Of a stretch of DNA of 64,000 nucleotides, positions 9,415 to 41,197 are shown one piece after another. Within the stretch, counting starts at the first letter, position 1, and each line of letters begins with the position of its first letter. The DNA is from a bacterium. Lineage in GTDB: Bacteria; Fidelibacterota; Marinisomatia; Marinisomatales; TCS55. Below the pieces are notes generated by a model. The model saw nothing but the letters and a program-made list of their open reading frames with translations. It had not been told where the DNA came from and made no database searches. The stretch covers positions 39,645 to 103,644 of the forward strand of contig SGYN01000003.1 of the NCBI GenBank assembly GCA_004321715.1, read 5' to 3'. Both the position numbers and the translations under genes were made by a program.

Positions 9415-10173
9415 TTATTTTTCTAAAATAGTTCTTAATTTATTTGCTGATGTATCAGGTTTATCAAATTCCCCAACTAGTTCTCCATTTTTAATAATGA
9501 AAAATTTATCGCCGATCATAAATGCTTGATCTATATTATGTGAAACAAGAATCACATTAATATTTTTATTTTTTAATTGAATTATTTGTTCAACAACTTT
9601 ATTTGACTCTTTCACTCCAAGCGCAGATGTCGGCTCATCAAGAATAAGTATTTTAGCCCCAAAATATAAAGCTCTTGCAATAGCAAGAATCTGACGTTCC
9701 CCACCAGAAAGAGTTCCTGCTGATCTTTTTGGATTATCTATACTGATATCAAATTTTCTTAATTCTTTTTTTGTTGTATCTATTGCAAACTCTTTATCCA
9801 TCATATTAAGGTAATTGTTATGTATTGGTTCATTGCCTAAAAAGAAATTTCGATAAATATTCATAATAGGTATGATTGCTAAGTTTTGATAAACTGTTGA
9901 AATTCCTGCTTCAATTGCTTCCCGTGGATTTGAAAAACTAACTTCATCATCGTTGACTACATACTTCCCCTGATCCGCACGAAAAACTCCAGAAACAATA
10001 TTTACCAGGGTAGACTTTCCTGCGCCATTATCACCTAGAATACAATGGATTTTCCCTGAATTTGTAGACATTGAAATGTTTTTCAATGCATTTATATTTC
10101 CAAAGTTTTTATAAATATTTTTTAGAACTATTTGGTTATTATTAGTAAGCATATTTCTTTCTAAAAATGCCAT
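9415..10173 (-). CDS. Sugar ABC transporter ATP-binding protein, single NBD
   Basis: Walker A GDNGAGKST, signature LSGGERQ, Walker B ILILDEPTSALG. Start may be the internal ATG (MLTNNN) because the first residues overlap the permease gene. Confidence 0.88.
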   Translation of the reverse strand: MAFLERNMLTNNNQIVLKNIYKNFGNINALKNISMSTNSGKIHCILGDNGAGKSTLVNIVSGVFRADQGKYVVNDDEVSFSNPREAIEAGISTVYQNLAIIPIMNIYRNFFLGNEPIHNNYLNMMDKEFAIDTTKKELRKFDISIDNPKRSAGTLSGGERQILAIARALYFGAKILILDEPTSALGVKESNKVVEQIIQLKNKNINVILVSHNIDQAFMIGDKFFIIKNGELVGEFDKPDTSANKLRTILEK

Positions 10174-11131
10174 TAACTAAAACTGCTGATATAAGCATAG
10201 CCCCCATAAAAACCTGAAACCAATCTGCGTCAGCACCAGCAAAAATGATTCCCTGTTTAACTATCCCAAAAATTAAAGCACCAATCATTGTCCCAAGGAT
10301 AGACCCATATCCTCCTGTTAATAGCGTTCCACCAATCACAACTGCTATAATAGCAATAAATTCTTTTTGCTCTCCTCTTAATACGTCGGCGCCACCAAAT
10401 GTTGTAATCTGTGTAATCGCAATAAACCAAGCGCAAAAAGCTGTTAGCATAAAAAGAGATGTCCTTACATTATGTACAGGTATGCCCATTAGTTCTGCGC
10501 TTTCCTTAGAAGCCCCCGTGGCAAATATCCAGTTCCCTACTTGACTATGTTTCAATAATAAATACCCAAAAACTCCAAAGAATAACCACCACAAAATTGA
10601 AATAGGAAAATCTGTGCCTGATATTGTAAAGCTATTACTAAAAATAGTGGACATAATACCGTACCCTTTTGATTCTTCTAGTCCACCAACCTGTGTTCTG
10701 CCAGTGATAATTTTAGATACCGCAATTGTAATTCCCCTAATAACAAATAAAGATCCAAGCGTTATAATGAAAGAAGGTAAACCGCTTTTAACTACGGTTA
10801 TACCATTACAATAACCAATGAAGAGCACTATGATCAAAGTCAAAATAGAGGCAAGGGGCATTCCTAAATTAGTTTCTGTAGTAAGTAATGTAACGGACAT
10901 GCCGGAAAACCCTATTAATGATCCTATTGAAAGATCAAATTCTCCACTTATCATTAACAAGGTGACGCCAATTGCAAGAATTCCAATCTCTGATGAAACC
11001 TGAAGATATGATTTGACCCCCTGTACTGATAAAAATCCACTATGCGCAAATATTGCAAAAAACCCCCAAACAAAAATGAGCCCTAAAAAAGCACCCGCCT
11101 CTGGTTTAGAAAGTATTTTTTTTATAGTAAT
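10142..11131 (-). CDS. Sugar ABC transporter permease, RbsC-like; proposed ATT start overlapping the upstream stop
   Basis: ORF track starts at TTG 10960 inside a TM helix. In-frame extension reads TIKKILSKPEAGAFLGLIFVWGFFAIFAHSGFLSVQGVKSYLQVSSEIGILAIGVTLLMISGEFDLSIGS, a typical RbsC-type N terminus. Confidence 0.85.
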   Translation of the reverse strand: MTIKKILSKPEAGAFLGLIFVWGFFAIFAHSGFLSVQGVKSYLQVSSEIGILAIGVTLLMISGEFDLSIGSLIGFSGMSVTLLTTETNLGMPLASILTLIIVLFIGYCNGITVVKSGLPSFIITLGSLFVIRGITIAVSKIITGRTQVGGLEESKGYGIMSTIFSNSFTISGTDFPISILWWLFFGVFGYLLLKHSQVGNWIFATGASKESAELMGIPVHNVRTSLFMLTAFCAWFIAITQITTFGGADVLRGEQKEFIAIIAVVIGGTLLTGGYGSILGTMIGALIFGIVKQGIIFAGADADWFQVFMGAMLISAVLVNGIFRKKYAY

Positions 11132-12105
11132 TATCGTGACCCTTTTTTACTTAGAGCTAAAACTTCTAGCGCATTATCAATATTAATTATGCTTGGCCCT
11201 GTCTCTAGCTTTTTGAAAGCAGGCGTGTTCTTATTGGTTATATATAGGTTCATTAAAACTACTGGTAGATAACCCTGCAAATATTGCTGTTGGTCTAAAG
11301 CAAAAATAATATGACCGCTTAAAATGCCATCAATGATCTGAGGGGTGAAATCGAACGTTGCGAGCTTAATTCTTTTTTGCATATCAATTTCTTTTAATAG
11401 TTTTGCTATTGGTATTGCTCCTAGTGGCCCCAACGCTAATACACCATCAATCTCTTTATTGTAACTAAGAAATGACCTAACCGTTTCTTGGGTCTCTGCT
11501 GGATCTGAGGCATCTATAGGTATTGTTTTAACGAGAACATTGTTTTCTTTTAATACTTTTCTAAATCCTTGTTCTCTTTGATCTAAGCTGATATTACCTA
11601 TTTCATGATTGATACATAGAGCGCTTTTTACATTATGTTTTAACATTTCTTGTCCTGCTTTCAATCCGGCTTCATATTCACTCTGACCTATATAGGTAAG
11701 TATATCGACCTCTTCCATAATTTTACTTCCGGCATTTATCACAATAATTGGAATATTGTTTTTTGATGCAGAGATAACGCTATTTTTAAGAGCTGGAATA
11801 TCTGGAACGGAAAGAATCAAGCCATCTGGATTTGTTGCAATAACAGCATCGATCATTCTTGACATTGTTATCATATCAAAATTTTGTGGAGATTGATATT
11901 GCAAGCTAATTCCAAGTTTTTCAGCGGCATCTTTTGCTCCATTTCGAACTACACTCCAAAAAGGATCAGTTGCCTGCCCATGGGTTATCATTTTTATCGT
12001 AATGTTTTTATCTGATATATTTTGATTACTATTTTCTGAACAACTAAAAAACGCACAGATGAGAAAAGGAAAAAATAGAAATCTAGTAATTTGTTTATGT
12101 ATCAT
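11131..12105 (-). CDS. Sugar ABC transporter substrate-binding lipoprotein (ribose/inositol-type, PBP1 fold)
   Basis: 324 aa; lipobox FFSCSEN; HGQATDPFWSVVRNGAKDAAEKLGISLQYQSPQNFD typical of periplasmic-binding protein type 1. Confidence 0.88.
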   Translation of the reverse strand: MIHKQITRFLFFPFLICAFFSCSENSNQNISDKNITIKMITHGQATDPFWSVVRNGAKDAAEKLGISLQYQSPQNFDMITMSRMIDAVIATNPDGLILSVPDIPALKNSVISASKNNIPIIVINAGSKIMEEVDILTYIGQSEYEAGLKAGQEMLKHNVKSALCINHEIGNISLDQREQGFRKVLKENNVLVKTIPIDASDPAETQETVRSFLSYNKEIDGVLALGPLGAIPIAKLLKEIDMQKRIKLATFDFTPQIIDGILSGHIIFALDQQQYLQGYLPVVLMNLYITNKNTPAFKKLETGPSIINIDNALEVLALSKKGSR

Positions 12106-12111
12106 TAATTT

Positions 12112-13104
12112 TTATACCATAATCTGTTTATTATTTAAAAGTGATTCTTTAGCAGCTAGTCCTGATTTTAGCGCATGCAGACTATCGTCAACATTAGCAT
12201 AATCAACTTTCTCCCCTTTTATTGACTTAATAAAGGTTCCCATTTCTTTTTTGTAAGACATCTCATATCGATCAATAAAAAAATTTTTCGGGTTAGCAGA
12301 TTCAAATCCTTTTTCTGTGCCTTTTTGCACCCCATGTAATAATTTATTCCCTACTTTTAATATCCCTTTTGAACCAAGAACCTCAGCTCTCTGGTCGTAT
12401 CCATACGGTGCTTTTCTTGAATTGATAATAGTGGCAAGAACTCCATTTTTAAGGCTCATATTTATAATTGCCGTATCAATATCATTAGCTTTTTCTATTT
12501 CAGGGTCAATAAAACAATTACCCCTTGCATATATTTCAGATATTTCTGAACCTGATAAATATTTGACCATATCAAAATCATGTATAGTCATATCCAAAAA
12601 CATCCCTCCTGATTGTTTAATATAACTTATAGGGGGTGGAGACGGGTCTCTTGAAATTATTTTTATGGTGTGAATATTACCAATGTCCCCAATTGATAAT
12701 GATTTTTTTAAATTAGAAAAATCTGGATCAAATCTTCTATTAAAACCAATATGAAGATTAAGGTCTTTATTATCCACCATTGTTTTAATATCCATAATTT
12801 CATTAACAGATAGCCCCAGTGGTTTTTCACAGAAAATATGTTTTACCTTTTGAGATATTTTTTTTATTTGATCAATGTGAAAATCGGAAGGTGAACAAAT
12901 AACTACACCATCAATATTTTGATTTTCGAAAATATCCTCAAGCTTTTTTGATAATTTTACTTTGATATCACCAAGCTGATTTTCCGAATGTAATATGGGG
13001 TCAATAATCATCTTCAATGTTGCGTCTTTTGCTGATATGATATTATCCGCGTGTATTTTTCCTATCCTACCAAAGCCAACTACTGCTAAATTTATTTTAT
13101 TCAT
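12112..13104 (-). CDS. iolG: Inositol 2-dehydrogenase-like Gfo/Idh/MocA oxidoreductase
   Basis: 330 aa; VGFGRIGKIHADNI, HIFCEKPLGLSV, HIGFNRRFDPDF, GGMFLDMTIHDFDMVKYLSG. Confidence 0.75.
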   Translation of the reverse strand: MNKINLAVVGFGRIGKIHADNIISAKDATLKMIIDPILHSENQLGDIKVKLSKKLEDIFENQNIDGVVICSPSDFHIDQIKKISQKVKHIFCEKPLGLSVNEIMDIKTMVDNKDLNLHIGFNRRFDPDFSNLKKSLSIGDIGNIHTIKIISRDPSPPPISYIKQSGGMFLDMTIHDFDMVKYLSGSEISEIYARGNCFIDPEIEKANDIDTAIINMSLKNGVLATIINSRKAPYGYDQRAEVLGSKGILKVGNKLLHGVQKGTEKGFESANPKNFFIDRYEMSYKKEMGTFIKSIKGEKVDYANVDDSLHALKSGLAAKESLLNNKQIMV

Positions 13105-14107
13105 TTTTTACCATTTGTGAACTATTTGTCAGTAAAGACTTTTTACCAGCATCTGCTGCTCTTATCGCTGATAAAATATTTTCTGGTCCAACCTCAGGCT
13201 TTTTGTTGGATGAAATACACTTATAAAAATATTCAAGTTCATTCACATATGATTTTTTATATCTTTCAATAAAAGAGTCTTTAATTTTTGATCTCTGCGT
13301 ATTTTTTTGATTACTTAAGCAATATAAACTTTCTGTTTTATTCTCAACTAAGAGAATGCCCTTTGACCCAAATAGTTCAATTCTCTGATCATAACCATAG
13401 TGTGTTTGTCTTGAACTATCAATTAAACAGAGAATCCCGCTTTCAAGTTCAAGGGTAATTATCGCATTGTCAATATCACCAATATCTTTTAGTTCTGGCT
13501 CAATAAATACGGCCCCATTAACATATATTTCTTTAATCCTTTCTCCGGTTAAGAAGTGTAGCATATCAAAATCATGTATGCATAAATCAAAAAGCATTCC
13601 GCCAGAAGATTTCAAAAATTTCAGCTTAGGTATGGAGGAATCATGGTTTGTAATATGAATTGTGTGAATATCACCGATTATTGCAGCGCCCACCTTTTCT
13701 TTTACCAAAATAAAATCATCATCAAATCTTCTGTTAAACCCAACTTGGACATGTATTTTTTCATTATTAATTGTTTTGATTGTTTCTTCTATTTCTTTCT
13801 CTGAAAAAGAAATTGGTTTTTCACAAAAAACATGTTTTTTATTTTGAGCACACTGTTTAATTAATTCAACATGTGTTGGTGTTGGTGATGAAATAATTAT
13901 TGCATCAATAGACTTACTTGATATTAAATCATTGGCATTTTTAAATAAATCAACCTCACCTACTGATTTGATAAAGTCCATATTGGGGTCTGGATCTGCA
14001 ACACCTTTTAGATTAAGCATTGGAAGGCTATGGTATATATTTTTCGCGTGCATTTTTCCAATTCTACCAAGTCCAATAAGGCCAATATTAATAACTTTTT
14101 TTTTCAT
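13097..14107 (-). CDS. iolG: Inositol 2-dehydrogenase-like Gfo/Idh/MocA oxidoreductase (paralog of the neighbouring gene)
   Basis: 336 aa; IGLGRIGKMHAKNI, HVFCEKPISFS, QVGFNRRFDDDF, GGMLFDLCIHDFDMLHFLTG. Confidence 0.75.
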   Translation of the reverse strand: MKKKVINIGLIGLGRIGKMHAKNIYHSLPMLNLKGVADPDPNMDFIKSVGEVDLFKNANDLISSKSIDAIIISSPTPTHVELIKQCAQNKKHVFCEKPISFSEKEIEETIKTINNEKIHVQVGFNRRFDDDFILVKEKVGAAIIGDIHTIHITNHDSSIPKLKFLKSSGGMLFDLCIHDFDMLHFLTGERIKEIYVNGAVFIEPELKDIGDIDNAIITLELESGILCLIDSSRQTHYGYDQRIELFGSKGILLVENKTESLYCLSNQKNTQRSKIKDSFIERYKKSYVNELEYFYKCISSNKKPEVGPENILSAIRAADAGKKSLLTNSSQMVKNE

Positions 14108-15186
14108 TGGATTAATCTAACTGAGGATCTTTCAATTAAATTCGAGTTTAGTATAATATTTTTTACATTCATCTTTTCATTATTTATTCTGGATATAATC
14201 AGCTTCATGCTTTCTTGTCCCATTTCATAAATTGGCTGATGCATTGTTGTTAAAGAGATCGTTGTTAGGGGCATATTATCATAACCTACTAAGGAAAAAT
14301 CTTTAGGTACTTCTAAACCAAGATGTTTTGCTCCTGCATAAAATAATAAAGCAATTCTATCGTGTCCCGCATAGACTGCAGTAAACTTTTTTCTGTTTTT
14401 TAAAATTTTATGCACGTGGGTTAGGTATCTATTAACATCAAATGCTTTATCATCTAGAATGGTTATTGATGAGTCTTGATTTACATTAATCTCTTTCATC
14501 TTAGATATAAAACCATCATATCTTAATCTTTCTGTACTATATAATTTGTTGCTTAAAAATGCAATTTTTTCATGACCATTATCAATAAGGTGTTGTGTTA
14601 TTTTGCGTGATCCCTCAAAGTTATTTGTTGTAACAAAATCTAAATTTGAATCCTGGATTCCTCGATCGGCCAAGACAACAGGTATATTTTTTCTTTTTAG
14701 TTTATTAATCACTTCAAGGTTTTGTTTGTCCGTTGCTGCTACAGGGATATATATTATCCCGCTGACTGAAAGTTTAATTAATCTTTCAACATGATATGTT
14801 GCCTGACTCAATTTATCATCCGTATTACATAAAATTAGGCTAATATCATTTTGGTTTGCTTCATCTTCTGCTCCCCTAGCAAGGATTGCGGCATAACCAG
14901 ACCTAATATCAGGTATTAATATTCCAATAGTTGGAATATTTAATAAGTTTCGTTTATTTTTTTTTACGAAAGATCCTACTCGTTTCTTTCTAATAATATA
15001 ACCATCATGCTCAAGGTTTTTTAATGCTTGTCTTACGGTGGCTCTGGATATCCCACTCATTTGCACTAACTCATTTTCTGTTGGTATTTTATCATTAGTA
15101 GCATAGTACCCTTGTTCAATTTTATCCTGTAACCAGGATTGTAATTGGAAATATTTTGGTATAGAACTTTTGTTATTTATAATCAT
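14104..15186 (-). CDS. AraR-type transcriptional regulator: GntR winged-helix N terminus fused to LacI-type ligand-binding domain
   Basis: 360 aa; IPKYFQLQSWLQDKIEQGYYATNDKIPTENELVQMSGISRATVRQALKNLEHDGYIIRKKRVGSFV (GntR) plus PTIGILIPDIRSGYAAILARGAEDEANQ...FSLVGYDNMPLTTISLTTMHQP (LacI/PBP1). Confidence 0.9.
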   Translation of the reverse strand: MIINNKSSIPKYFQLQSWLQDKIEQGYYATNDKIPTENELVQMSGISRATVRQALKNLEHDGYIIRKKRVGSFVKKNKRNLLNIPTIGILIPDIRSGYAAILARGAEDEANQNDISLILCNTDDKLSQATYHVERLIKLSVSGIIYIPVAATDKQNLEVINKLKRKNIPVVLADRGIQDSNLDFVTTNNFEGSRKITQHLIDNGHEKIAFLSNKLYSTERLRYDGFISKMKEINVNQDSSITILDDKAFDVNRYLTHVHKILKNRKKFTAVYAGHDRIALLFYAGAKHLGLEVPKDFSLVGYDNMPLTTISLTTMHQPIYEMGQESMKLIISRINNEKMNVKNIILNSNLIERSSVRLIQ

Positions 15187-15196
15187 TATTTGTCTA

Positions 15197-15214
15197 TAAT
15201 TGTACGTACAATTA
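15197..15214. promoter_or_regulatory. Candidate operator: perfect 18-bp palindrome TAATTGTACGTACAATTA
   Basis: Read directly; 11 bp upstream of the regulator start. Core TTGTACGTACAA resembles the AraR operator consensus (ATTTGTAC half-sites). Confidence 0.75.
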
Positions 15215-15264
15215 ATTAGATTTCTATTTTAATGATTAACAAATTATTAATAAATATTTGAAAC

Positions 15265-15293
15265 TTGCATATAAAAAAACTTTCAGCTATAAT
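15265..15293 (+). promoter_or_regulatory. Candidate sigma70-type promoter TTGCAT-N17-TATAAT
   Basis: TTGCAT 15265-15270 and TATAAT 15288-15293 with 17-bp spacing, upstream of the 15329 ATG. Confidence 0.6.
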
Positions 15294-15309
15294 TGTATAT
15301 ACAATTATA
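15288..15309. promoter_or_regulatory. Candidate operator: perfect 22-bp palindrome TATAATTGTATATACAATTATA overlapping the -10
   Basis: Read directly; shares the AATTGTA..TACAATT arms with the 15197-15214 palindrome. Confidence 0.75.
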
Positions 15310-15328
15310 ATAACTCTAGGAGGTAATA

Positions 15329-18220
15329 ATGTTTTTTAAACAAGTATCAGTAACAGTTATTTCGTTATTATTTATTAATATAGTATTCGCCGGTGATGTT
15401 AGCGGGCGTGTTTCAGATTCTAGCTCGGGTGACTTTTTGCCAGGTGCGAATGTGGTTCTAGAAGGTACAAATTATGGAGTGTCTTCAGATAGATCTGGGA
15501 TGTTTAAAGTAAACAACGTTCCTGAAGGTAGCTACACATTAAAAGTGACCTATATTGGCTATGGCGATTATACAGAAACTATAACAGTTGGCTCTGAATC
15601 TATGATGATCAATGTATCTCTTAGTGTTGATTATGTTGCAATGGAGGCTATTAATGTTACGGGTCTTTCACAGGGACAAGCAAAGGCTTTAAGTCAACAA
15701 CGTAGTGCAGGAAATATTAAAAATGTAGTTTCTAGAGATCAGATGGAAAAATTTCCTGATCAAAATGTAGCAGATGTTCTGCAAAGACTTCCAGGAATTG
15801 CCCTTGAGAGTGATCATGGTGAGGGTAGATACGTTCAAATTAGAGGTGCTGAAGCAACATTGAACACAACAACTATAAACGGTGTGAAAGTGCCTAGCCC
15901 AGAAGATGTAAGAAAAATTTCATTAGACATTATCCCTAGTTACTCTCTTGGGTCTGTTGAGGTAACTAAAGCAATTACTCCAGATATGGATGCTGACGCA
16001 ATTGGGGGGCATGTAAATCTAATAACAAAAAATGCTTTTGATTATGATGGGCAATTTATTGAAGCAAAAGTTGCTGGTGGACATAGACCTCTTTACGGAA
16101 AAAATGGAAGTATGGGGGCGTTTACGTATGGAAATCAATTCATGAATGGGAAGCTTGGTTTACTTGTATCTTCAAGCTATGAGTTCAATGATATGAAAAC
16201 CGATAATATTGAATTAGAGTGGGATGATAAGTATGAATGGGTAAGCGATGTTGTTGATAGCCAAGAAGACGAAACTTACGTTGTAGAAGAAGCCGACGGG
16301 ATTATTCTAACTGATATGCAACTAAAAAATTATGCTCTAAGTAGAGAAAGAGTTGGGTTAACTACAGGGCTTGACTACAAGCTTGGAGAAAATTCAAAAT
16401 TATATTTGAACCTTATAACAAACACCTATACTGATAAAGAAAATAGAAATAGACTTCGGTATAGATTTGACAAGTCTATTGATGAAGAAACGCCTGGTTC
16501 TGGTTACGATCCATCGGATGGTATGAGTGTAAATCTTGCGAGGATATATAGAGAATTAAAAAGTAGATCATCAATATCCAAAATTAATAGTTATTCTCTT
16601 GGGGGTGAACATGGCTTAGGTATGCTAAGTATGGACTGGTCTTTTACCAAATCATACGCAGAAGAACTTAGAGACCCCTCTGTAAATGCTGAGTTTGTGG
16701 TTAAAGATATTAACTGGGACTATGAATACAGCGATTCAAACCATCCTCAGGTTTCTAACTTTACTGATGAAGATGGCGCAACCTTCGATCAACATGATTT
16801 ATCAAAATATGAATTAGATGCTATTGAGATTGAAGGGGATTACATACCTAGCGCTAAAAACCCAAACGGAAATCTGGTTTCTGGTGATGATCAAGTTATA
16901 GCATTTAATGCTTCTATGCCCCTTGCTTTAGGCGTAGCTAACGGTGAAATAAAAGTTGGTGCAAAATTATCTGCTAAAGAAAAAAAATCAGATAAGTCTG
17001 GTGGAGAAGTTTGGGAATGGGATGGTGATGATGACCTAATAATGCAAGGTTTTAATATGAATATTGAAGGTGATAATTATATGGATGGTAACTATGTGCA
17101 TACCCATGGATTAGATGTCAAAAAAGTACGGGATCACATGAGTGCGAATATTGGGTCGTATGAAATTTTACCTCTTTATGAAGATGCTATACTAGAGACA
17201 TGGGATGCGACCGAAGATGTTTCTGCATTCTATGGTATGGCCGATATGAAAATGGGTAAAATTAATTTTATAGGTGGCGCCAGAATGGAAAAAACATCGA
17301 CTGTTTATAATTCTTGGGCTGGTTCTGTAGAAGATGCTGAAGATGGTGAGCTAAGTATAGATGAAAGTCTTGCTGCATATTTTACCGCTCAAAAAGTATC
17401 GAAAGAATATACAAATGTACTTCCAATGGCACACGTTCGGTACGCGGTTAATGATAGAGCACAGGTTCGAGCTGCCTATACAGAAACTATTGCAAGAGCA
17501 GACTTTGCTTCGCTGGTTCCCTTTATTGCAACTGATGGAGATGATGCAGAAGCAGGAAACCCTGAACTCGAATCTGCGCACTCAAGCAATATTGACCTTA
17601 TGTTTGAGTATTATCCAAAGGGTCTAGGAATATTTTCCTTTGGCTATTTTAGCAAAACAATTGATAACTATATTTATACAGCTGTACTTAAAGATGCTAC
17701 AATTCGTGGTGGTTCTAAAGTATACGATGAAGTTGTTATGCCAGTTAACGGAAATGAAGCGACTCTAAGTGGTTGGGAAATGAACTTTGTAAAGAATCTA
17801 GATTTTTTACCTGGACCATTAAGAAACGTCTCACTTTATTTTAATTATACTTCAACTACTTCAGAAGCTGACTACGGTTCAGAGCGAGAAAAAACAACCT
17901 TCCCCGGACAAGCTGAAGCCACAGGAAACCTAAGCTTTGCCTATGAAACCAGCAAGCTAACTGCAAGGTTTTCACAAGCTATTGCTGACCAGTATATAGT
18001 TGAGGTTGGTGAAGATGCAGATGAAGATATTTATTATAATCCGGCAAACCGTTTAGATTTCTCCATGGGCTATAATCTTAGTAGCAAGCTTACTATTTTC
18101 GCAGATGTACTAAATATTACAAACGTCCCTCACGTCTATTTCATGGGTGATGCAAGTAAGCCTGTTGAAAAAGAAGTTTATGGAGCAACAGCAAAAGTTG
18201 GGATGAGCTATAGATTCTAA
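15329..18220 (+). CDS. TonB-dependent receptor (Caulobacter/Xanthomonas-like class with CarboxypepD_reg domain)
   Basis: 963 aa; signal peptide, DVSGRVSDSSSGDFLPGANVVLEGTNYG; plug FPDQNVADVLQRLPGIALESDHGEGRYVQIRGAEATLNTTTINGVKVPSPE; C-terminal aromatic VGMSYRF. SD-like AGGAGG before ATG. Confidence 0.92.
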   Translation: MFFKQVSVTVISLLFINIVFAGDVSGRVSDSSSGDFLPGANVVLEGTNYGVSSDRSGMFKVNNVPEGSYTLKVTYIGYGDYTETITVGSESMMINVSLSVDYVAMEAINVTGLSQGQAKALSQQRSAGNIKNVVSRDQMEKFPDQNVADVLQRLPGIALESDHGEGRYVQIRGAEATLNTTTINGVKVPSPEDVRKISLDIIPSYSLGSVEVTKAITPDMDADAIGGHVNLITKNAFDYDGQFIEAKVAGGHRPLYGKNGSMGAFTYGNQFMNGKLGLLVSSSYEFNDMKTDNIELEWDDKYEWVSDVVDSQEDETYVVEEADGIILTDMQLKNYALSRERVGLTTGLDYKLGENSKLYLNLITNTYTDKENRNRLRYRFDKSIDEETPGSGYDPSDGMSVNLARIYRELKSRSSISKINSYSLGGEHGLGMLSMDWSFTKSYAEELRDPSVNAEFVVKDINWDYEYSDSNHPQVSNFTDEDGATFDQHDLSKYELDAIEIEGDYIPSAKNPNGNLVSGDDQVIAFNASMPLALGVANGEIKVGAKLSAKEKKSDKSGGEVWEWDGDDDLIMQGFNMNIEGDNYMDGNYVHTHGLDVKKVRDHMSANIGSYEILPLYEDAILETWDATEDVSAFYGMADMKMGKINFIGGARMEKTSTVYNSWAGSVEDAEDGELSIDESLAAYFTAQKVSKEYTNVLPMAHVRYAVNDRAQVRAAYTETIARADFASLVPFIATDGDDAEAGNPELESAHSSNIDLMFEYYPKGLGIFSFGYFSKTIDNYIYTAVLKDATIRGGSKVYDEVVMPVNGNEATLSGWEMNFVKNLDFLPGPLRNVSLYFNYTSTTSEADYGSEREKTTFPGQAEATGNLSFAYETSKLTARFSQAIADQYIVEVGEDADEDIYYNPANRLDFSMGYNLSSKLTIFADVLNITNVPHVYFMGDASKPVEKEVYGATAKVGMSYRF

Positions 18221-18237: not shown

Positions 18238-18275
18238 ATATAAATATGGGCCTCTTTTGAGACCCATATTTATAT
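18238..18275 (+). terminator. Strong intercistronic hairpin after the TonB receptor (terminator, attenuator or mRNA-processing element)
   Basis: Arms around AAATATGGGcCTC-TTTT-GAGaCCCATATTT, extended by A/T pairs; only a weak T-tract follows. Confidence 0.55.
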
Positions 18276-18376: not shown

Positions 18377-19471
18377 GTGAAAACGAACTTTATAACAATT
18401 TTATTTTTTTCAATTTTTATTTTTGTTGCATTAAAATGTGAAAAAAAACATAATACTCTTGAGCCCGATGGAGCAGTATCGGCAATATTTGAAACAGAGC
18501 CCGTTGGTTCGTCTGAAGACACGGCTGATGATCCATGTGTTTGGGTACACCCTACGGATCCATCTTTATCTATTATTATTGGTACAGATAAAGATGAAAA
18601 CTCTCCCGGGTTAAGGGTTTATGATATGAGTGGCAAGCAAATTTATTTTACGACAAATGAAAAAGCAAATAATGTTGATATAAGATATGGTATGGTGCTA
18701 GCTGGAAAAAAAACAGACATTATCACAGCAGGTCTAAGAGTCTCTAATACCTTAGGAGTATATAAAGTAAATCCTGAAAGCAGGACTTTAACTTCTATTT
18801 CAGCAAGAGCAATAAAGCTTGGTATTGAGGTGTATGGATCTTGTATGTATAAGGATGTTTCCACAAATATATTCTATGCAATTGTAAATGATAAAAAAGG
18901 TAACGTTGAACAATATAAATTGTTTGATAATGGTTCAGGGTTAGTTGATGCAGAGTTGGTTAGAACGCTTAAGCTGGGTGGTCAACTTGAAGGTTGTGTT
19001 GCTGATGATATTTTGGGCAACCTGTATATTGGAGAAGAAGAACACGGTATTTGGAAATATGATGCATCGCCAAGTGGGTCAGATAATGGTATTCTTATTG
19101 ATACGATGGGTCCACATATTGCACCAGATGTTGAGGGGCTAACCATTTACTATGCCAATGAATCTTCTGGGTATCTTATTGCCTCAAGCCAAGGTGATGA
19201 TACTTATGTTATTTACACTAGAGAAGGGCAAAATAAATTTATTGGTAGGTTCTCTGTTGTAGATAACAACACTATTGATGGCACAAGCAGTACTGATGGA
19301 ATTGATGTTTGCAATATGAGCCTTGGAGGGCAATTATCAAATGGGGCTTTTATTGTTCAAGATGATGTTAATGATATTGGAAATCAAAATTTTAAAATAA
19401 TATCATGGAATGATATTGCGTCCTTATTTAATCCGCCCCTAGCAGTAAATAATGAGTGGGATATACGATAA
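18377..19471 (+). CDS. Beta-propeller phytase (3-phytase), putative lipoprotein
   Basis: 364 aa; DDPCVWVHPTDPSLSIIIGTDKD, GCVADDILGNLYIGEEEHGIWKY, PDVEGLTIYYANESSGYLIASSQGDDTYVIYTREGQNKFIG match beta-propeller phytase motifs. GTG start; hydrophobic N terminus ending in Cys. Confidence 0.92.
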   Translation: MKTNFITILFFSIFIFVALKCEKKHNTLEPDGAVSAIFETEPVGSSEDTADDPCVWVHPTDPSLSIIIGTDKDENSPGLRVYDMSGKQIYFTTNEKANNVDIRYGMVLAGKKTDIITAGLRVSNTLGVYKVNPESRTLTSISARAIKLGIEVYGSCMYKDVSTNIFYAIVNDKKGNVEQYKLFDNGSGLVDAELVRTLKLGGQLEGCVADDILGNLYIGEEEHGIWKYDASPSGSDNGILIDTMGPHIAPDVEGLTIYYANESSGYLIASSQGDDTYVIYTREGQNKFIGRFSVVDNNTIDGTSSTDGIDVCNMSLGGQLSNGAFIVQDDVNDIGNQNFKIISWNDIASLFNPPLAVNNEWDIR

Positions 19472-19493: not shown

Positions 19494-21350
19494 ATGAAAC
19501 TAACAATGGCACAAGCAGTTATTCGTTATTTAAATAACCAGTATATTCAAAGAGATGAAAAAGAAAACAAATTCATTGCTGGTGTCTGGGGTATCTTTGG
19601 CCATGGTAATGTGGCAGGAATTGGCGAAGCGTTAGAGCAGGATAAAAACTTAAAGCATTTTCTACCGAGAAATGAACAGGCAATGGTTCATTCTGCTGTT
19701 GCATATGCAAAGCAAAATAAGCGGATGCAAACTTATGCATGCACAAGTTCTATTGGCCCCGGAGCAACAAATATGATAACCGCAGCCGCAGGAGCAACAA
19801 TTAATAGATTGCCAGTTTTGCTGCTACCTGGAGATATTTTTAGCAGGAGAAATGTTGGCCCTGTATTACAACAGCTCGAATATAATAGATCTCCAGACGT
19901 ATCAGTTAATGATTGTTTTAAGCCTGTAAGTGTTTTTTGGGACAGAATAAATAGACCAGAGCAGATTCTTTTTTCTTTACCTGAGGCGTTTAGAATTTTA
20001 ACTGACCCGGTAGCCACTGGTGCGGTAACCTTATCTCTTCCACAAGATGTTCAGGCGGAAGCATATGATTATCCAGATCATTTTTTTGATAAAAGAATCT
20101 GGGATGTTCCAAGAAACGCGCCTTCTGAAAAAACTATAATTGCAGCAGCAAATATTATTAAAAATTCTTCTAGACCAGTAATAATTGCAGGTGGTGGTGT
20201 TTTGTTTTCCGATGCTGAGAAATCTTTAGCTAAAGTTTGTAACCACACAGGAATTCCTGTTGTAGAGACACAAGCCGGGAAGGGCGCTATACCATGGGAT
20301 CATGACCAGTGTCTTGGCGCTATCGGTGTTACAGGAACAAGTGCAGCCAATATTATTTCTCGTGATGCTGATCTAATCATTTGTATAGGAACAAGGCTAT
20401 CGGATTTTACAACTGCATCTAAAACTCTTTTTCAAAACCCTGATGTTACTTTTCTTAGTATCAATGTATCGCCATTTGATGCCCATAAACATTCTTCTGT
20501 TTCAATAACAGGAGATGCAAGAGAATGTCTTGAAAAACTTTGCGATATATTAGACGCAGGTGGATTTAATATAGCAGATAATTATAAAAATGTAATTAAG
20601 GATCAAAAAGCAAAATGGGATCAAGAAGTAGATAGAATATTTAACTTAAATAATAAACCTGCTATTAGCCAGGGTGAGGTTATTGGAATTCTTTCGAACG
20701 CTATGAATAAAGAGGATACCGTTGTGTGTGCCGCAGGAAGCCTTCCTGGAGATATGCATAAACTTTGGAGAACTGTAAATGGGGATCAATATCATATGGA
20801 GTATGGTTACTCATGCATGGGCTATGAAATTGCTGGTGGACTAGGGATTCGAATGGCAAAAAACAAAGGGGATGTTTTTGTTATGGTTGGTGATGGATCT
20901 TATCTGATGATGAACTCAGAAATCGTAACATCAATACAAGAAAATCAAAAACTCATAATTATCTTGATTAATAATCATGGTTTTGGAAGTATAAATAATT
21001 TATCCCTAAGCCTTGGCAGCCATGGTTTTGGTAACCAATACAGGAAAAGGGAACATCAGACAGGCGCATATACTGGAGATAAATTACCCGTAGATTATGC
21101 AATGCATGCAAGGTCTATGGGCATTAATGGAATAAAAGCACAAACAAAACAAGAGTTTGAATCCGCTCTCAACAAAGCAAAAAAACATGAAGTTTCAACA
21201 TTAATAGAAGTATTGGTTGACCTAAGTATTTCTGTCCCTGGTTATGAAGCATGGTGGGATGTGCCAGTAGCTGAGGTATCCCAATCAAATAAAGTTGTTA
21301 AAGTAAGAAAAGATTATGATCAACAAATTAAACAAGAACGAGATTATTAG
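19494..21350 (+). CDS. iolD: 3D-(3,5/4)-trihydroxycyclohexane-1,2-dione hydrolase
   Basis: 618 aa ThDP enzyme; MTMAQAVIRYLNNQYIQRD-like N terminus, GVWGIFGHGNVAGIGEALEQ, YACTSSIGPGATNMITAAAGATINRLPVLLLPGD characteristic of IolD. Confidence 0.95.
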   Translation: MKLTMAQAVIRYLNNQYIQRDEKENKFIAGVWGIFGHGNVAGIGEALEQDKNLKHFLPRNEQAMVHSAVAYAKQNKRMQTYACTSSIGPGATNMITAAAGATINRLPVLLLPGDIFSRRNVGPVLQQLEYNRSPDVSVNDCFKPVSVFWDRINRPEQILFSLPEAFRILTDPVATGAVTLSLPQDVQAEAYDYPDHFFDKRIWDVPRNAPSEKTIIAAANIIKNSSRPVIIAGGGVLFSDAEKSLAKVCNHTGIPVVETQAGKGAIPWDHDQCLGAIGVTGTSAANIISRDADLIICIGTRLSDFTTASKTLFQNPDVTFLSINVSPFDAHKHSSVSITGDARECLEKLCDILDAGGFNIADNYKNVIKDQKAKWDQEVDRIFNLNNKPAISQGEVIGILSNAMNKEDTVVCAAGSLPGDMHKLWRTVNGDQYHMEYGYSCMGYEIAGGLGIRMAKNKGDVFVMVGDGSYLMMNSEIVTSIQENQKLIIILINNHGFGSINNLSLSLGSHGFGNQYRKREHQTGAYTGDKLPVDYAMHARSMGINGIKAQTKQEFESALNKAKKHEVSTLIEVLVDLSISVPGYEAWWDVPVAEVSQSNKVVKVRKDYDQQIKQERDY

Positions 21351-22242
21351 TTCAGGGGATCGTGGGGTTCGTTTTGGCATTGCTCCAATTAATTGGAGCA
21401 ATGATGACATGACAGAATTGGGCGGTCATTATACTTTAGATACAATGCTATCTGAGATGTCTGCGGCTGGTTATGTAGGAACTGAGATAGGAAACAAGTT
21501 TCCTAAAGATTCATTTGGTATTAAAAAAGCACTAACTAATTTTAATTTAGAGCTTGCTTCTTCATGGCACTCTACTTTTTTTTTATCAAACAATATTGAT
21601 TATGAACTTGAAAAAATAAAACATAAATCTATAATGTTACTTGAGGCTGGTGCAAAAATTATAAATCTTGCAGAATGCACTGCTTCTATTCACAGCAAAA
21701 TAAACGCCCCTCTTTCCTTAAAACCTGTATGTGATGAAAAAAACTGGAAGATTCTTACAGAATCTTTGAATCAAGCTGGAGAAATTTGCAATGAAGAAGG
21801 TATTAGTATGGCCTTTCATCATCATATGGGGACATATATTCAAAGTAAAAATGAATTAAATAGATTGTTATCTGATACAGACCCAAAACTTGTTAATCTT
21901 TGTGCAGATACGGGGCATCTATATTTTGCTGGAATTGATCCTATAAATTTCTTCAAAGAAAATATGAACCGAATCAAACACATACACTTTAAAGATCTTA
22001 GAAGTAATATTTTCAACAAAATAAATTTTGATGAAACTTCTTTTTTAAATGCTGTTTTAGAAGGAGTATTTACTGTCCCAGGCGATGGCTGTATAGATTT
22101 TAATTCTATAAGTAAAGTAATTATTGAATCCGATTATAATGGGTGGGTAATTGTTGAAGCTGAGCAAAACCCTGACATCGCAAATCCTTTTGAATACGCA
22201 AGAAAATCAAAACAATATCTTAATAATATTTGGGGTAATTAA
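21316..22242 (+). CDS. iolE: Myo-inosose-2 dehydratase-like
   Basis: 308 aa; GIAPINWSNDDMTELGGHYTLDTMLSEMSAAGYVGTEIGNKFPKD typical of IolE; overlaps the iolD 3' end. Confidence 0.9.
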   Translation: MINKLNKNEIISSGDRGVRFGIAPINWSNDDMTELGGHYTLDTMLSEMSAAGYVGTEIGNKFPKDSFGIKKALTNFNLELASSWHSTFFLSNNIDYELEKIKHKSIMLLEAGAKIINLAECTASIHSKINAPLSLKPVCDEKNWKILTESLNQAGEICNEEGISMAFHHHMGTYIQSKNELNRLLSDTDPKLVNLCADTGHLYFAGIDPINFFKENMNRIKHIHFKDLRSNIFNKINFDETSFLNAVLEGVFTVPGDGCIDFNSISKVIIESDYNGWVIVEAEQNPDIANPFEYARKSKQYLNNIWGN

Positions 22243-22244
22243 TA

Positions 22245-23303
22245 ATGACGCAAAAAAGCATAATGCAGCAAACAGCCGAATTTGGTTCTGATTGGTGGAA
22301 TGATTCTAATGATCATTTGGAGCTTCAACATGCCTATAAAGAAGGTGCCGTAGGAGCAACTTCAAATCCTGTTATTACGCTCAATAGCGTTAAAAGCCAT
22401 CCAAATATATGGATTCCAGAGATTGATGAAATAATTATAAAGAACCCCACTGCTAGTGAAGATGAAATTGTATGGGTATTAATTGATAAAGTTGGAATAA
22501 AAGCTGCAAATATATTACTCCCTGTATATAAAAATACAAACGGGCAAAAAGGGAAACTGTCTTTACAGGTAAGTCCTAAATATTATCGAAATGCTGATGC
22601 GATGGTTGAGCAAGGAAAATACCTGGCTTCTCTAGCTACCAATATTGCTGTAAAATGCCCAGCTCTTCCTGCTGGAATTATGGCAATGGAAGAATTAACA
22701 GCAATGGGGGTCTCGGTAAATGCAACAGTTTCATTTACTGTTCCTCAGGCTGTTCAAGTTGCTGAAGCTATTGAGCGCGGCCTTGCTAAAGCAGAAAAAG
22801 ATGGAATTAACACAGAAAATATAACGCCCTATATTACTATTATGGTTGGCAGAATTGATGACCACTTAAAAAGGCAACAAAAAGAACATAACATTGATTT
22901 TGATCCAGATCTAATAAATTGGGCTTCGATTGCTATTTTTAAAAATGCTTATTCAATATTTAAAAAGAAGGCTTACAAGTCTAAGCTTTTAGCTGCAGCC
23001 TTTCGCTGTGATTTGCACTGGAAAGAAATTGTTGGTGGAGATGTAATAATTAGTATGCCATACGAATGGTGGAATAGGTTTAATGAGTCAGGCATTGAAG
23101 TAATCGAAAGAATAAATAATCCTGTAGATCCTGAAATTGTGCGTGCCTTGAAGGAGAAATTTGTTGATTTTAACCGTGCTTATAATGAGGATGGAATGAC
23201 GGTTGATGAATTTGAATCTTTTGGCGCAACAATACATACCATGAATACTTTTTTCGATGGCTATGATGAGTTTGTTAAATTAATTCGCAGGCGTATGATT
23301 TAA
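22245..23303 (+). CDS. Transaldolase-family protein
   Basis: 352 aa; GAVGATSNPVITLNSVKSH, NIAVKCPALPAGIMAMEELTAMGVSVNATVSFTVPQAVQVAEAI; located between iolE and iolB. Confidence 0.8.
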   Translation: MTQKSIMQQTAEFGSDWWNDSNDHLELQHAYKEGAVGATSNPVITLNSVKSHPNIWIPEIDEIIIKNPTASEDEIVWVLIDKVGIKAANILLPVYKNTNGQKGKLSLQVSPKYYRNADAMVEQGKYLASLATNIAVKCPALPAGIMAMEELTAMGVSVNATVSFTVPQAVQVAEAIERGLAKAEKDGINTENITPYITIMVGRIDDHLKRQQKEHNIDFDPDLINWASIAIFKNAYSIFKKKAYKSKLLAAAFRCDLHWKEIVGGDVIISMPYEWWNRFNESGIEVIERINNPVDPEIVRALKEKFVDFNRAYNEDGMTVDEFESFGATIHTMNTFFDGYDEFVKLIRRRMI

Positions 23304-23318: not shown

Positions 23319-24083
23319 ATGAGCTTAATTAAACCATTCAGAGGTGGATTTAAAAATGGTATTAATACCTACAAAGACACATATGATCAAACAGGAATAG
23401 ATTTTGACATATTAATTATGGAAAAAGATGAAACCTTTTCAATATGTGAGGCAAAAAATGAGATTGCAGTTATTATAATTCAAGGTAAAGGTGTCTTTCA
23501 TTTTCAAAATGAAGATTCGTATTTCGATCGCGAAAACTGGATTGAGAATGATCCGACAATTGTTCACATGGGTCCAGGTGAAAAAGTTAAAATAAGCGCA
23601 AAAAGACAAAGCAGGGTTGCAATTGTAAAAACAGAAAATCCAAATCAATTCAGTGGAAGTATCTATACAACAGATAAAATAGATACTGAACATAGAGGTA
23701 AAGATCAATTAGATGACACTTGCTATAGATTAGTTCGCCTAGCTTTTGATGATACTATAGCACCTAAAGAGTCAAAATTAGTTATAGGAGAAGTTCTAAA
23801 TTTTCCTGGTAAGTGGAGCAGCTATCCCCCGCACTATCATCCGCAGCCGGAAATATATTACTATGAAATATCTCCATCATGGGGGTATGGACATGGCGAG
23901 CTTGGTGATAATGTGTATAAAATTAAGAATGGTGATGTATTAGCAATAACAAATGGCAAAACACACAGCCAAACATCTGCTCCTGGTTTTCATATGTATT
24001 ATCTTTGGGCAATTAGACATGGTGATAAAAAAAGATATGATGGATTTACCTATATTAAACCATTTGAAAACATGCTGGAGTAA
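23319..24083 (+). CDS. iolB: 5-deoxy-glucuronate isomerase
   Basis: 254 aa; FPGKWSSYPPHYHPQPEIYYYEISPSWGYGHGELGDNVYKIKNGDVLAITNGKTHSQTSAPGFHMYYLWAIRH. Confidence 0.92.
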   Translation: MSLIKPFRGGFKNGINTYKDTYDQTGIDFDILIMEKDETFSICEAKNEIAVIIIQGKGVFHFQNEDSYFDRENWIENDPTIVHMGPGEKVKISAKRQSRVAIVKTENPNQFSGSIYTTDKIDTEHRGKDQLDDTCYRLVRLAFDDTIAPKESKLVIGEVLNFPGKWSSYPPHYHPQPEIYYYEISPSWGYGHGELGDNVYKIKNGDVLAITNGKTHSQTSAPGFHMYYLWAIRHGDKKRYDGFTYIKPFENMLE

Positions 24084-24087
24084 AAAG

Positions 24088-25506
24088 TTGAAAACCAACA
24101 TTATATATGTAATTATTTTTTTATTGATTGACAATGTGAGCTCGACAGAAATTGATTATTACTGGTCTGGGGCTGTTACCATAAACACTGGTGTGGTTTC
24201 TGTTGCAACTGATTCTGAAGCAGAAGTCAAAGTTCAGTACAGTGATACAAAAGATTTTAGTAAAAATAATTTATTTTCTAAATTATTCAAAACTAATAGC
24301 GAATCTGATTATTTTACTAAGGTGAAGCTAGAAAACCTAAAACCTAAAACAATTTATTATTATAGGTTTGTTGTTGATGGTATTATAGATAAAAAGCAAG
24401 TTGGAAAATTTAACACACACGGGCCTGGTTCTTTCTCTTATAAAATTGCTCTAGCGACGTGTGCTACAACTGGGTCTAATAGTCCAGTCTTTGATAGAAT
24501 TCGAGAAGAGGATCCTTTGTTTTATTTAATGCTCGGAGACTTTCATTATGGGAATATATATAGAGATTGTGAAGATAATTTTTTAACGTATTTTCGAGCA
24601 ACTCTTGGTTCCAAAAAACAGTCTAAATTATATCAGAACACAGCGATAGCATATATGTGGGACGATCATGATTTTGGCCCTAACAATAGTTCTGGTATTT
24701 CTCCAAATAAAGATGGGCGGGCGGCTTGTCGCCCAGAAGCTTATAAAGCGTACAAGAATTATGTGCCTCATTATGCCCTGGCTTTTAAAGAAGAAGGTGA
24801 AGTTATTTCTCAATCTTTTAATGTCGGTAGGGTAAAGTTTTTATTAACAGATTTAAGATCTCAAAAAAGACGGCCGCTTTTTAATGGGGATTGTTCAAAC
24901 CCAAAGTCTTCAAACTGTAAAAAAGTAAAACAGGGGTCTAACTTTGGAACTGAAGAACATCTTAGATGGTTTAAAAATCAATTATTAGATGCAAAAAATA
25001 ATAATCATGCTGTTGTTTGGCACTCAAGCTTCCCTTATTTAAGTTTGCCAGATTTGAGTTGGTTTAATTGCGACGAAGAAAATACAATTAAAACTGATAC
25101 TGGATATGAGTGTGATGATCATGATAATTGGGGTTGGTATCCAGAAGAAAGAACAGCGATTGCAAACTTTATAAAAGAGCATCAAATACAATTGTGCATC
25201 GTTAGTGGAGATGCGCATATGAGCGCAATTGATGATGGTTCTAATAGTGATTATGCTTCTGGTGGAGGAGCCCCAATACCAATTTTTCATGCTGGGCCCT
25301 TAGATAGAAAGCCGAGTATCAAAGGCGGGCCTTATTCACATGGCGTTAGTGGGCTCCGAGGGCAATATGGAATTATGAAAATTATCGATAGCGGGAGTAA
25401 AGATCTGTGCGTGGAATGGAAAGTAAAAGACTATAAGGGTGAATTTGTTCGCAAAAGCAATGGGGATCTACTCGAGCATTCATTCTGTTTTCAGTTAGAT
25501 AATTAA
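24088..25506 (+). CDS. PhoD-like alkaline phosphatase (secreted)
   Basis: TTG start at 24088 with signal peptide (LKTNIIYVIIFLLIDNVSS). VKVQYSDTKDF..., LGDFHYGNIY, MWDDHDFGPNNSSG, VVSGDAHMSA-type motifs. The longer ORF-track start (23953) overlaps iolB and is unlikely. Confidence 0.85.
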   Translation: MKTNIIYVIIFLLIDNVSSTEIDYYWSGAVTINTGVVSVATDSEAEVKVQYSDTKDFSKNNLFSKLFKTNSESDYFTKVKLENLKPKTIYYYRFVVDGIIDKKQVGKFNTHGPGSFSYKIALATCATTGSNSPVFDRIREEDPLFYLMLGDFHYGNIYRDCEDNFLTYFRATLGSKKQSKLYQNTAIAYMWDDHDFGPNNSSGISPNKDGRAACRPEAYKAYKNYVPHYALAFKEEGEVISQSFNVGRVKFLLTDLRSQKRRPLFNGDCSNPKSSNCKKVKQGSNFGTEEHLRWFKNQLLDAKNNNHAVVWHSSFPYLSLPDLSWFNCDEENTIKTDTGYECDDHDNWGWYPEERTAIANFIKEHQIQLCIVSGDAHMSAIDDGSNSDYASGGGAPIPIFHAGPLDRKPSIKGGPYSHGVSGLRGQYGIMKIIDSGSKDLCVEWKVKDYKGEFVRKSNGDLLEHSFCFQLDN

Positions 25507-26852
25507 TGTATGTAAAAATACTTAATTTTTTTAAGGCGGGCTCAGATCAGCCCCCTTTAGTTGATGAAAATCAGATAAACAAAAAATATTCTAAATATCG
25601 TAAAGAAGTTCTCGCTTCTATTATAGTTTTATATGGATTTGGTTATACTTGTAGGCTTGCACTATCTGTTGTTAAAAAACCACTTATTGATAATGGTATT
25701 TTTTCTATTATTGATCTTGGGCTAGTTGGCTCTGCTTATTTCTATGGGTATGCCCTGGGAAAATTTATTAATGGGTTTTTAGCTGACTATGCTAATATAA
25801 AAAAGTTTTTTACTTTTGGTTTAATTATATCAGGTGCAATAAATATTTCCATGGGTTTAAACCAGTCTTTACCCTTATGGATTGTATTCTGGTTTTTAAA
25901 TGGCTGGGTTCAAGGAATAGGTGCACCTTCATGTGCAATAGCTCTTACAAATTGGTTTAGTCCGAAAGAAAGAGGGTGGTATTATGGTTTGTGGAGCACA
26001 GCGCACTCTATTGGTGAAGGTCTTACTTTTATTGTTACAGCAGCTTTAGTTGATTATCTATCTTGGCATGCAGGATTTATTGGACCTGGAATCTCTTTAA
26101 TATTGATAACTGCTGTGGGGTATAGGTTTTTACAAGATAGCCCTAGTAGCTTGGGCCTTCCAAGCATTAGCGTTTGGAAAAAAGAGATTGATATAAAAAA
26201 GCTTTCAAATAACTTCAGTGAGGTATTAAAAAATCAATTAAAAATTATTAAATATCCATCTATTTGGATTTTGGGACTAGCAAGTTCAACTATGTATATC
26301 ACTAGATATGCAATAAATAGTTGGGGTATTTTATATTTACAAGAGGCTAGGGGCTATTCTTTGATTGAGGCTGGGGGCTTGGTTGGGTTAAACACTTTTA
26401 CTGGTATTATTGGATGTATTGCATATGGTTTTATATCAGATAAATATTTTAATGCTCGAAGACCTCCTGTTACGTTGATGTTTGGTGTCGCTGAAATCAT
26501 ATCATTGTTTTTAATTTTTTTTGGTCCACAATCAACATTCATATTAACGATCGCCTTTATTATTTATGGATTTACATTAAGCGGGTTGCTTGCGGTTTTG
26601 GGCGGTTTATTTGCTATAGACATAGCTCCCAAAAATATATCTGGCGCCGCTATGGGGTTTATTGGATTGTTTAGTTACATAGGCGCGGGAATACAAGAAA
26701 AGATTAGCAGTGTTTTAATAAAAACATCGCAGTCAGATTTAACTTTAGAGACAATATATAATTTTGATAGCGTAATAATATTTTGGATTTCCGCGTCAAT
26801 TGTATCTTTTTTTCTAGCTTTATCCCTTTGGAATTACAAGACTAAGGATTAA
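25506..26852 (+). CDS. MFS organophosphate:phosphate antiporter family (GlpT/UhpT-like)
   Basis: 448 aa; YGFGYTCRLALSVVKKPLIDNG, GLVGSAYFYGYALGKFINGFLADYANIKKFF, GWYYGLWSTAHSIGEGLTF. Confidence 0.8.
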   Translation: MYVKILNFFKAGSDQPPLVDENQINKKYSKYRKEVLASIIVLYGFGYTCRLALSVVKKPLIDNGIFSIIDLGLVGSAYFYGYALGKFINGFLADYANIKKFFTFGLIISGAINISMGLNQSLPLWIVFWFLNGWVQGIGAPSCAIALTNWFSPKERGWYYGLWSTAHSIGEGLTFIVTAALVDYLSWHAGFIGPGISLILITAVGYRFLQDSPSSLGLPSISVWKKEIDIKKLSNNFSEVLKNQLKIIKYPSIWILGLASSTMYITRYAINSWGILYLQEARGYSLIEAGGLVGLNTFTGIIGCIAYGFISDKYFNARRPPVTLMFGVAEIISLFLIFFGPQSTFILTIAFIIYGFTLSGLLAVLGGLFAIDIAPKNISGAAMGFIGLFSYIGAGIQEKISSVLIKTSQSDLTLETIYNFDSVIIFWISASIVSFFLALSLWNYKTKD

Positions 26853-32115: not shown

Positions 32116-32309
32116 AATGAGAATATAAGAGCATTTGACAAGGATTTCGGAAAAGAGCTTTGGAAATACAAACTTCCTGCTGGCGACTATGCTACTCCTA
32201 GTGTAAATCATGTAAATATAAACAATATATAGTTATTGCATGTGGTGGTGGAAAAATGGGGACAAACCCTGTGGAATATCATCTATCTTTTGGTTTACCT
32301 TCAAACTAA
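32116..32309 (+). pseudogene. C-terminal relic of a PQQ-dependent quinoprotein dehydrogenase, frameshifted
   Basis: NENIRAFDKDFGKELWKYKLPAGDYATPSVNHVNINNI* then, in another frame, YIVIACGGGKMGTNPVEYHLSFGLPSN*; resembles the C terminus of membrane PQQ glucose dehydrogenase-type enzymes. Confidence 0.7.
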
Positions 32310-35833: not shown

Positions 35834-36002
35834 TGCTTATGAATTAATTAATAATATTGTTAATCAATAATAATATAAATATTAGGTATATATATATCCT
35901 ATTGCGAATTGTGTAAATATTATTGAGCATCCTGTAATTTCAGTATAGATTTGTATATAATTCAAATTAGATGAATTAAAAATATGAAAAAACTTTACTA
36001 TA

Positions 36003-36971
36003 ATGAATAAAGGAGACGTTATGGAAACCAGACGTGAATTTCTTAAAAAATCAGTAGCTATTGCTAGTGGTGTAAGTGTAATAGGGTTGGGTGCTTCTTC
36101 TCTTTCATCTTGTACGGCGAGTAATGCGCCATTATTTAAAATTTCATTAGCAGAGTGGTCACTAAACAAAGGTATTCGTTCTGGTGAAATTCCCCATATA
36201 GATTTTGCAAAAATTGCTAAAAGAAATTTTGGGATAGACGCTGTAGAGTATGTTAATCAATTGTTTGCAGATAAAAGCGGTGGTACTGGTGAATATATAA
36301 AAGAAATGAAAAATATTGCTGACTCGGAAGGGGTAAAAAGTTTATTAATAATGTGCGATGGAGAAGGTTATTTAGGTGATCCTAATAGTTCAGAAAGAAC
36401 CAAGGCAGTTGAAAACCATTATAGATGGGTTGAGGCGGCAAAATACCTTGGTTGTCATTCTATTAGAGTTAATGCTCAAAGTAAAGGTGAATACGATGAG
36501 CAGATGAATCTTGCGGCTGATGGATTGAGCCGACTTACAGAATATGGCGCTAAAAATAATATTAATATTATTGTTGAAAACCATGGTGGTCTTTCTAGCA
36601 ATGGTAAGTGGCTTTCCGGAGTAATGGATATGGTTAATCATCCACATTGTGGTACACTTCCCGATTTTGGAAACTTTTACTTAGGGACATGGGATGATAA
36701 AGGCAAAGAGTGGTACGATAGATATGTTGGTGTACAAGAACTAATGCCATACGCTAAAGCAGTTAGTGCAAAAAGTCATGAGTTTGATGATAGTGGAAAT
36801 GAAAAAGATACGGACTATTATAAAATGATGAAGATTGTACTTGACGCTGGTTACCGTGGTTATGTGGGAATCGAATATGAAGGTCCTGAATTAAGTGAAA
36901 TGGATGGCATAACCACTACAAAAAAATTATTGGAAAAGGTTCGATCAGAACTAACTGGGGATTATAGCTAA
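36003..36971 (+). CDS. Exported (Tat-type) sugar phosphate isomerase/epimerase-like TIM-barrel protein
   Basis: 322 aa; [31 protein letters not shown] (twin arginine plus lipobox-like Cys); [35 protein letters not shown]. Confidence 0.82.
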
Positions 36972-36990
36972 CGCTCCGGCTATAATTTTA
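36961..36990 (+). terminator. Possible rho-independent terminator
   Basis: ATTATAGC (36961-36968) / GCTATAAT (36979-36986) followed by TTTTAAAT, at the end of the 36003-36971 gene. Confidence 0.45.
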
Positions 36991-41179: not shown

Positions 41180-41197
41180 AAAATTTTATTCTGATTT

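Follow-up and report, generated by a model that had tools for sequence, protein, structure and literature searches.

The window, the whole 64-kb stretch of DNA analysed here, comes from an uncultured marine bacterium with a genome of Marinimicrobia type and contains two divergent operons separated by a 142-bp intergenic region. On the minus strand the first gene encodes a regulator, followed by inositol dehydrogenase and transporter genes, and on the plus strand a TonB-dependent receptor gene is followed by genes for phytase and inositol catabolism. The features are as follows.

9415–12105, minus strand: ABC transporter (ATPase 9415–10173, permease 10142–10960, substrate-binding protein 11131–12105)
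12112–13104, minus strand: second inositol 2-dehydrogenase-type protein (TIGR04380, 389 bits, cut-off 355)
13097–14107, minus strand: inositol 2-dehydrogenase IolG (TIGR04380, 364 bits, cut-off 355)
14104–15186, minus strand: regulator of 360 aa with a GntR winged helix-turn-helix (HTH, PF00392) and a LacI-type periplasmic-binding-protein sensor (PF13377/PF00532), from Pfam domains
15329–18220, plus strand: TonB-dependent receptor, first gene of the divergent operon
18377–19471, plus strand: beta-propeller phytase (PF02333, 345.6 bits)
19494–21350, plus strand: IolD, trihydroxycyclohexane-1,2-dione acylhydrolase (TIGR04377, 926 bits, cut-off 715)
21316–22242, plus strand: IolE, inosose dehydratase (TIGR04379, 375 bits, cut-off 290)
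22245–23303, plus strand: transaldolase-family protein (PF00923)
23319–24083, plus strand: IolB-like 5-deoxy-glucuronate isomerase (PF04962; TIGR04378 below cut-off)
23953–25506, plus strand: PhoD-like phosphatase (PF09423)
25506–26852, plus strand: MFS transporter, organophosphate (UhpC/GlpT) group (PF07690; UhpC/PgtP/GlpT are the best NCBIfam models, all below cut-off)
27672–29153, plus strand: (methyl)malonate-semialdehyde dehydrogenase, IolA-type (TIGR01722, 514 bits, cut-off 448.5)

The iolG gene at 13097–14107 overlaps the end of the regulator gene and lies in the same operon. The closest NCBIfam model to the ABC substrate-binding protein (11131–12105) is a rhizopine-binding protein, below its cut-off, and beyond this transporter the minus strand encodes a TRAP transporter, a HIBADH-like reductase, a PfkB kinase and a GntP permease. 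On the plus strand, one more open reading frame separates the MFS transporter from the IolA-type dehydrogenase. With these genes, the route from phytate into central metabolism is almost complete. The gap between the TonB receptor and phytase genes holds a strong hairpin with a 17-bp stem (18238–18275), which might lead to trimming or attenuation of the transcript and hence to unequal amounts of receptor and enzymes. The longest perfect palindrome in the window, 26 bp (CATTGCTCCAATTAATTGGAGCAATG, 21378–21403), falls in the iolE reading frame, and a cluster of FG-GAP, ASPIC/UnbV and TPR proteins (32306–44120) adjoins the inositol region.

The Pfam domains agree with the original prediction of a GntR HTH joined to a LacI-type sensor: PF00392 spans residues 18–74, PF13377 residues 198–356 and PF00532 residues 86–350. 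No match to UTRA, the HutC-type sensor, was found in the regulator, which has the LacI-type domain in its place. No other GntR protein of the recovered genome exceeds the Pfam cut-off, and the regulator is present there as one copy. NagR/YvoA is the closest solved DNA-binding domain; this part of the protein scores higher against NagR/YvoA, and the sensor against CcpA/RbsR, than either does against AraR. The counterparts of AraR residues Y5, E30, R41 and R45 are nonetheless kept in the window regulator and in nearly all of its orthologues.

Two palindromes and their promoter context

The intergenic region contains two perfect palindromes, one proximal to each operon, and a recognizable promoter for the TonB/phytase operon.

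15197–15214, no strand: operator 1, TAATTGTACGTACAATTA, regulator-proximal perfect palindrome
15265–15270, plus strand: -35 element TTGCAT of the TonB/phytase operon promoter, from sequence
15288–15293, plus strand: -10 element TATAAT, the first six bases of operator 2, from sequence
15288–15309, no strand: operator 2, TATAATTGTATATACAATTATA, perfect palindrome proximal to the structural operon, overlapping the -10
15318–15323, plus strand: Shine-Dalgarno AGGAGG of the TonB receptor gene (ATG at 15329), from sequence

Checking the letters confirmed that both palindromes are perfect with centres 93 bp apart, and that the second starts at the TATAAT of TTGCAT-N17-TATAAT, as had been claimed. Calling this promoter near-consensus suits the -10, which matches at 6/6 positions, and is generous for the -35, which matches TTGACA at only 3/6. 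A standard promoter scan of this AT-rich DNA returned 83 promoters against 88.9 expected, and TTGCAT-N17-TATAAT is not listed under its rules. Operator 1, an 18-mer, stops 10 bp short of the regulator ATG. In first-order Markov sequence of intergenic composition, the chance expectation per 142 bp is 0.015 perfect palindromes of at least 18 bp and 0.0007 of at least 22 bp. The TTGCATATAAAAAAACTTTCA stretch at the structural promoter is identical in two relatives (L088 and L071), and both have a counterpart of operator 2 at the same place.

A position weight matrix (PWM) was trained on 24 regulator-proximal sites taken from the upstream regions of orthologues in other genomes, with the window excluded. 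Scored with this matrix, operator 2 was the best site in the 64-kb window at 26.6 bits and operator 1 the second at 21.2 bits, followed by a site of 9.2 bits; about 0.35 sites of at least 14 bits are expected per 64 kb. The genome-wide motif scan proposed with the original prediction covered the 1.63 Mb of a recovered, 67% complete genome and returned three exact copies of ATTGTAYRTACAAT, namely the two operators and one copy within the coding sequence of an AGCS-type transporter (G000:C43). With up to 2–3 mismatches there was no clear excess over a reversed-pattern control (64 vs. 51; 161 vs. 186), and the motif is thus locus-specific in the recovered 67% of the genome. The regulon could not be extended by these degenerate scans. 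The strongest off-locus matches examined lie in coding sequence; the one exception, with 1 mismatch, precedes an unrelated repeat protein (L007). No intergenic site comparable to the two operators was found in the rest of the recovered genome.

Orthologues of the regulator, with 46–80% identity, were collected from Neomarinimicrobiota, KSB1, Calditrichota, Ignavibacteriota and Bacteroidota-labelled MAGs. All 28 non-redundant orthologues have a TAATTGT-MTAK-ACAATTA-like site 15–60 bp before the regulator start. A remote homologue with 34% identity (L104) is without the site, and none of the tested inositol genes is found at its locus. Could these palindromes belong to another DNA-binding protein, or be chance or RNA features? 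HutC-type GntR regulators do have the pattern NyGTMTAKACNy in common (PMC4494728), but a single GntR protein exceeds the cut-off in the recovered 67% of the genome, and the site accompanies this regulator across several phyla. The probability of such palindromes arising by chance is very small, and, being perfect and having neither a loop nor a T tract, they are not terminators. We regard this alternative as extremely improbable; because only one GntR protein is over the cut-off, the site can be assigned to the adjacent regulator as well as sequence allows.

When the regulator promoters of the relatives are aligned on the operator they read CTTGACA-N17-TA[TAATTGT..], and the overlap of -10 and operator recurs there. 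Matches to TTGACA average 4.61/6 at one fixed offset, which places the hexamer N17 ahead of a -10 having four bases in common with the operator, and average at most 2.29 at each of 26 other offsets. Because the TTGACA-like -35 keeps one fixed distance, the operator is fused to the -10. Structural-side -35-like hexamers occur at the same operator offset in the window and in L088, L071, L093, L094, L055 and L061, while the window regulator's own promoter is poor at the conserved offset (TTAATC-N17-ATTAAT). Given this conserved geometry, a repressor bound to the operator would therefore sit on the -10. It is very improbable that, bound to these sites, the regulator instead acts as an activator of the catabolic operon. 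Activation does occur with some LacI/GntR regulators, and the weak -35 of the structural promoter would be in keeping with it, but an operator over the -10 at a conserved offset is the classical position for steric repression, and activators normally bind farther upstream, beyond the -35.

We infer that the two palindromes are very probably the operators of the adjacent, autoregulated GntR/LacI-type repressor of AraR architecture, one for each divergent operon, with inositol or 2-inosose as the predicted inducer. The regulator would act as a dimer at both sites. With no inducer, a dimer at operator 2 would block RNA polymerase by covering the -10 of the TonB receptor-phytase-IolD-IolE operon. 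A dimer at operator 1 would repress the operon that holds the regulator gene itself, the two IolG genes, the ABC transporter and the genes beyond it, so that each operator serves one promoter, its own. Binding of inositol, or of 2-inosose (2-keto-myo-inositol), the first product of its oxidation, to the LacI-type domain would release the repressor and turn both operons on. Autoregulation and repression of the divergent inositol/phytate operon, predicted originally from this locus, are supported by the phylogenetic footprints.

The divergent TonB receptor is kept in eight loci (L088, L071, L089, L090, L092, L093, L094 and L103), several of which also have phytase. In the divergons L089, L090, L091 and L092 the second site is weak (10–13 bits). 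One relative (G146) has a third operator of 17.0 bits between the TonB receptor and phytase genes (L088:12113–12130); the TonB-phytase gap of the window has no site of at least 8 bits matching it. Outer half-sites are present in many operators, with ACA at positions 20–22 in 14 of 28 and the mirror TGT in 12 of 28. In L050, L056, L063, L092, L093, L094, L098 and others, the operator is extended toward a 26-bp four-box palindrome by further half-sites, TTTGTA on its upstream and KACAA on its downstream side, and none is in register at the window's two operators. Additional boxes beside operators have been reported previously (Suvorova et al., 2015; PMC4494728).

The original prediction also allowed for looping, in which dimers of the same regulator at the same two operators would join and loop the intervening 93 bp. 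This distance corresponds to 8.9 helical turns, four TonB divergons (93, 115, 135 and 137 bp) are in phase with p=0.03 in a subset of n=4 chosen post hoc, and AraR of B. subtilis loops between in-phase operators (PMC4218819). However, Rayleigh tests of helical phasing gave p=0.1 for the six short spacings and p=0.45 for all 11. The operators are between 93 and 384 bp apart, farther where the intergenic region is longer (r=0.90), and each site lies near its own gene. Such spacing is the pattern of operon-specific, not cooperative, double sites (Suvorova et al., 2015; PMC4494728). Because phasing gives no firm support, we keep looping as a rival only and consider it unlikely.

Candidate inducer and probable exchange of the pathway

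In almost all loci with enough sequence, the regulator is adjoined by IolG together with either IolM, IolN and IolO or IolD and IolE. Most relatives have IolM, IolN and IolO, the Thermotoga-type pathway, as neighbours of the regulator. In the window, L088 and L091 these three are absent from the locus and IolD is present, with IolE wherever the contig reaches. No orthologue locus has both sets, and IolN was not found in the recovered, 67% complete window genome. On the regulator tree, where L087 and L071 were labelled IolD/IolE by kinship, their contigs ending before that point, the IolD/IolE loci require at least two changes, and the clade of the window is nested among IolM/IolN/IolO loci.

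This clade (the window, L087, L088 and L071) has a very long stem of 1.02 changes per column. Regulators with 80% identity are found in another family of the same order, and five genomes of the same genus are without the regulator (E<=1e-60). The long stem and patchy presence suggest that the regulator was transferred, or that it changed fast once the pathway had been swapped. At the positions of AraR K4 and S40 the window clade has the AraR-like K and S, and most orthologues have Q and A. The operators of the clade have an AraR-like GTAYRTAC centre vs. GTMTAKAC, and a co-change in specificity is possible.

Inositol and 2-inosose are common to the IolM/IolN/IolO and IolD/IolE routes. Because both routes share them, they are favoured as inducer, and we infer from gene content that the inducer is likely one of these two, not phytate or a late intermediate. 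The pathway genes shared across loci uphold the inositol-type inducer that had been predicted, while the inositol phosphates named beside it look less likely, as most orthologue loci show no phytase. A system sensing phytate or an inositol phosphate, the phosphorylated substrate itself, would fit the phytase, PhoD and organophosphate-type MFS genes in the operon, and the TonB and phytase genes divergent from the regulator in several relatives. Yet the loci without phytase do have inositol dehydrogenase with IolM, IolN and IolO, the sensor belongs to the LacI type of sugar-binding domains, and the phytase is presumably exported, so that its product rather than phytate reaches the cytoplasm. We find a phosphorylated inducer quite improbable.

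The broader picture is probably one in which the regulator-operator-promoter module stayed with inositol use across several phyla of the FCB group while the pathway was exchanged at least twice (IolM/IolN/IolO vs. IolD/IolE), a history that points to inositol or 2-inosose as inducer. In Neomarinimicrobiota an outer-membrane receptor and a phytase would then have come under the same repressor, so that the capture of phytate is coupled to the breakdown of inositol. If the sensor-operator unit outlives the pathway it controls, comparative genomics can narrow the inducer to metabolites that occur in both pathways. The fusion of operator and -10 is simple and makes site prediction in related genomes straightforward. 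For marine bacteria that are abundant but uncultured, and about whose regulation hardly anything is known, the locus offers a regulon of inositol and phytate use that can be tested.

Comparison with known regulators

AraR of B. subtilis has the same domain architecture as the window regulator, a GntR HTH with a LacI-type sensor. Its box, At(T/A)tGTaCGTAcaa(A/T)T, is fitted by operator 1 at 15/16 positions and by operator 2 at 13/16, and R41, one of the kept contact residues (Y5, E30, R41 and R45), contacts G5 of the AraR box (PMC4218819). However, AraR controls arabinose genes, whereas the neighbours of the window regulator are inositol/phytate genes, and AraR is not its nearest relative in either domain. 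The original label of AraR-type therefore stands for architecture and operator type; it does not extend to the regulon or to the nearest relatives (NagR/YvoA and CcpA/RbsR). The family core TTGTMTAKACAA equals the published consensus NyGTMTAKACNy of the HutC subfamily (NagR/YvoA, TreR), and for these GntR families both double sites in divergons and further, outer boxes have been described (PMC4494728). The HutC sensor has the UTRA/chorismate-lyase fold, unlike the LacI-type sensor here.

Among open-licence papers we found none on a GntR/LacI inositol regulator in these phyla. Known IolR proteins also control inositol catabolic operons, but with other architectures: IolR of B. subtilis belongs to the DeoR family and that of Corynebacterium glutamicum is GntR-type. 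The signal for B. subtilis IolR is DKGP, a late intermediate that would not be made by those lineages here that are without IolD/IolE. In Thermotoga maritima, IolR is a ROK family protein (PMC3750489). The IolG-IolM-IolN-IolO set of T. maritima stands beside the orthologous regulator in most relatives; the window has IolD/IolE in its place.
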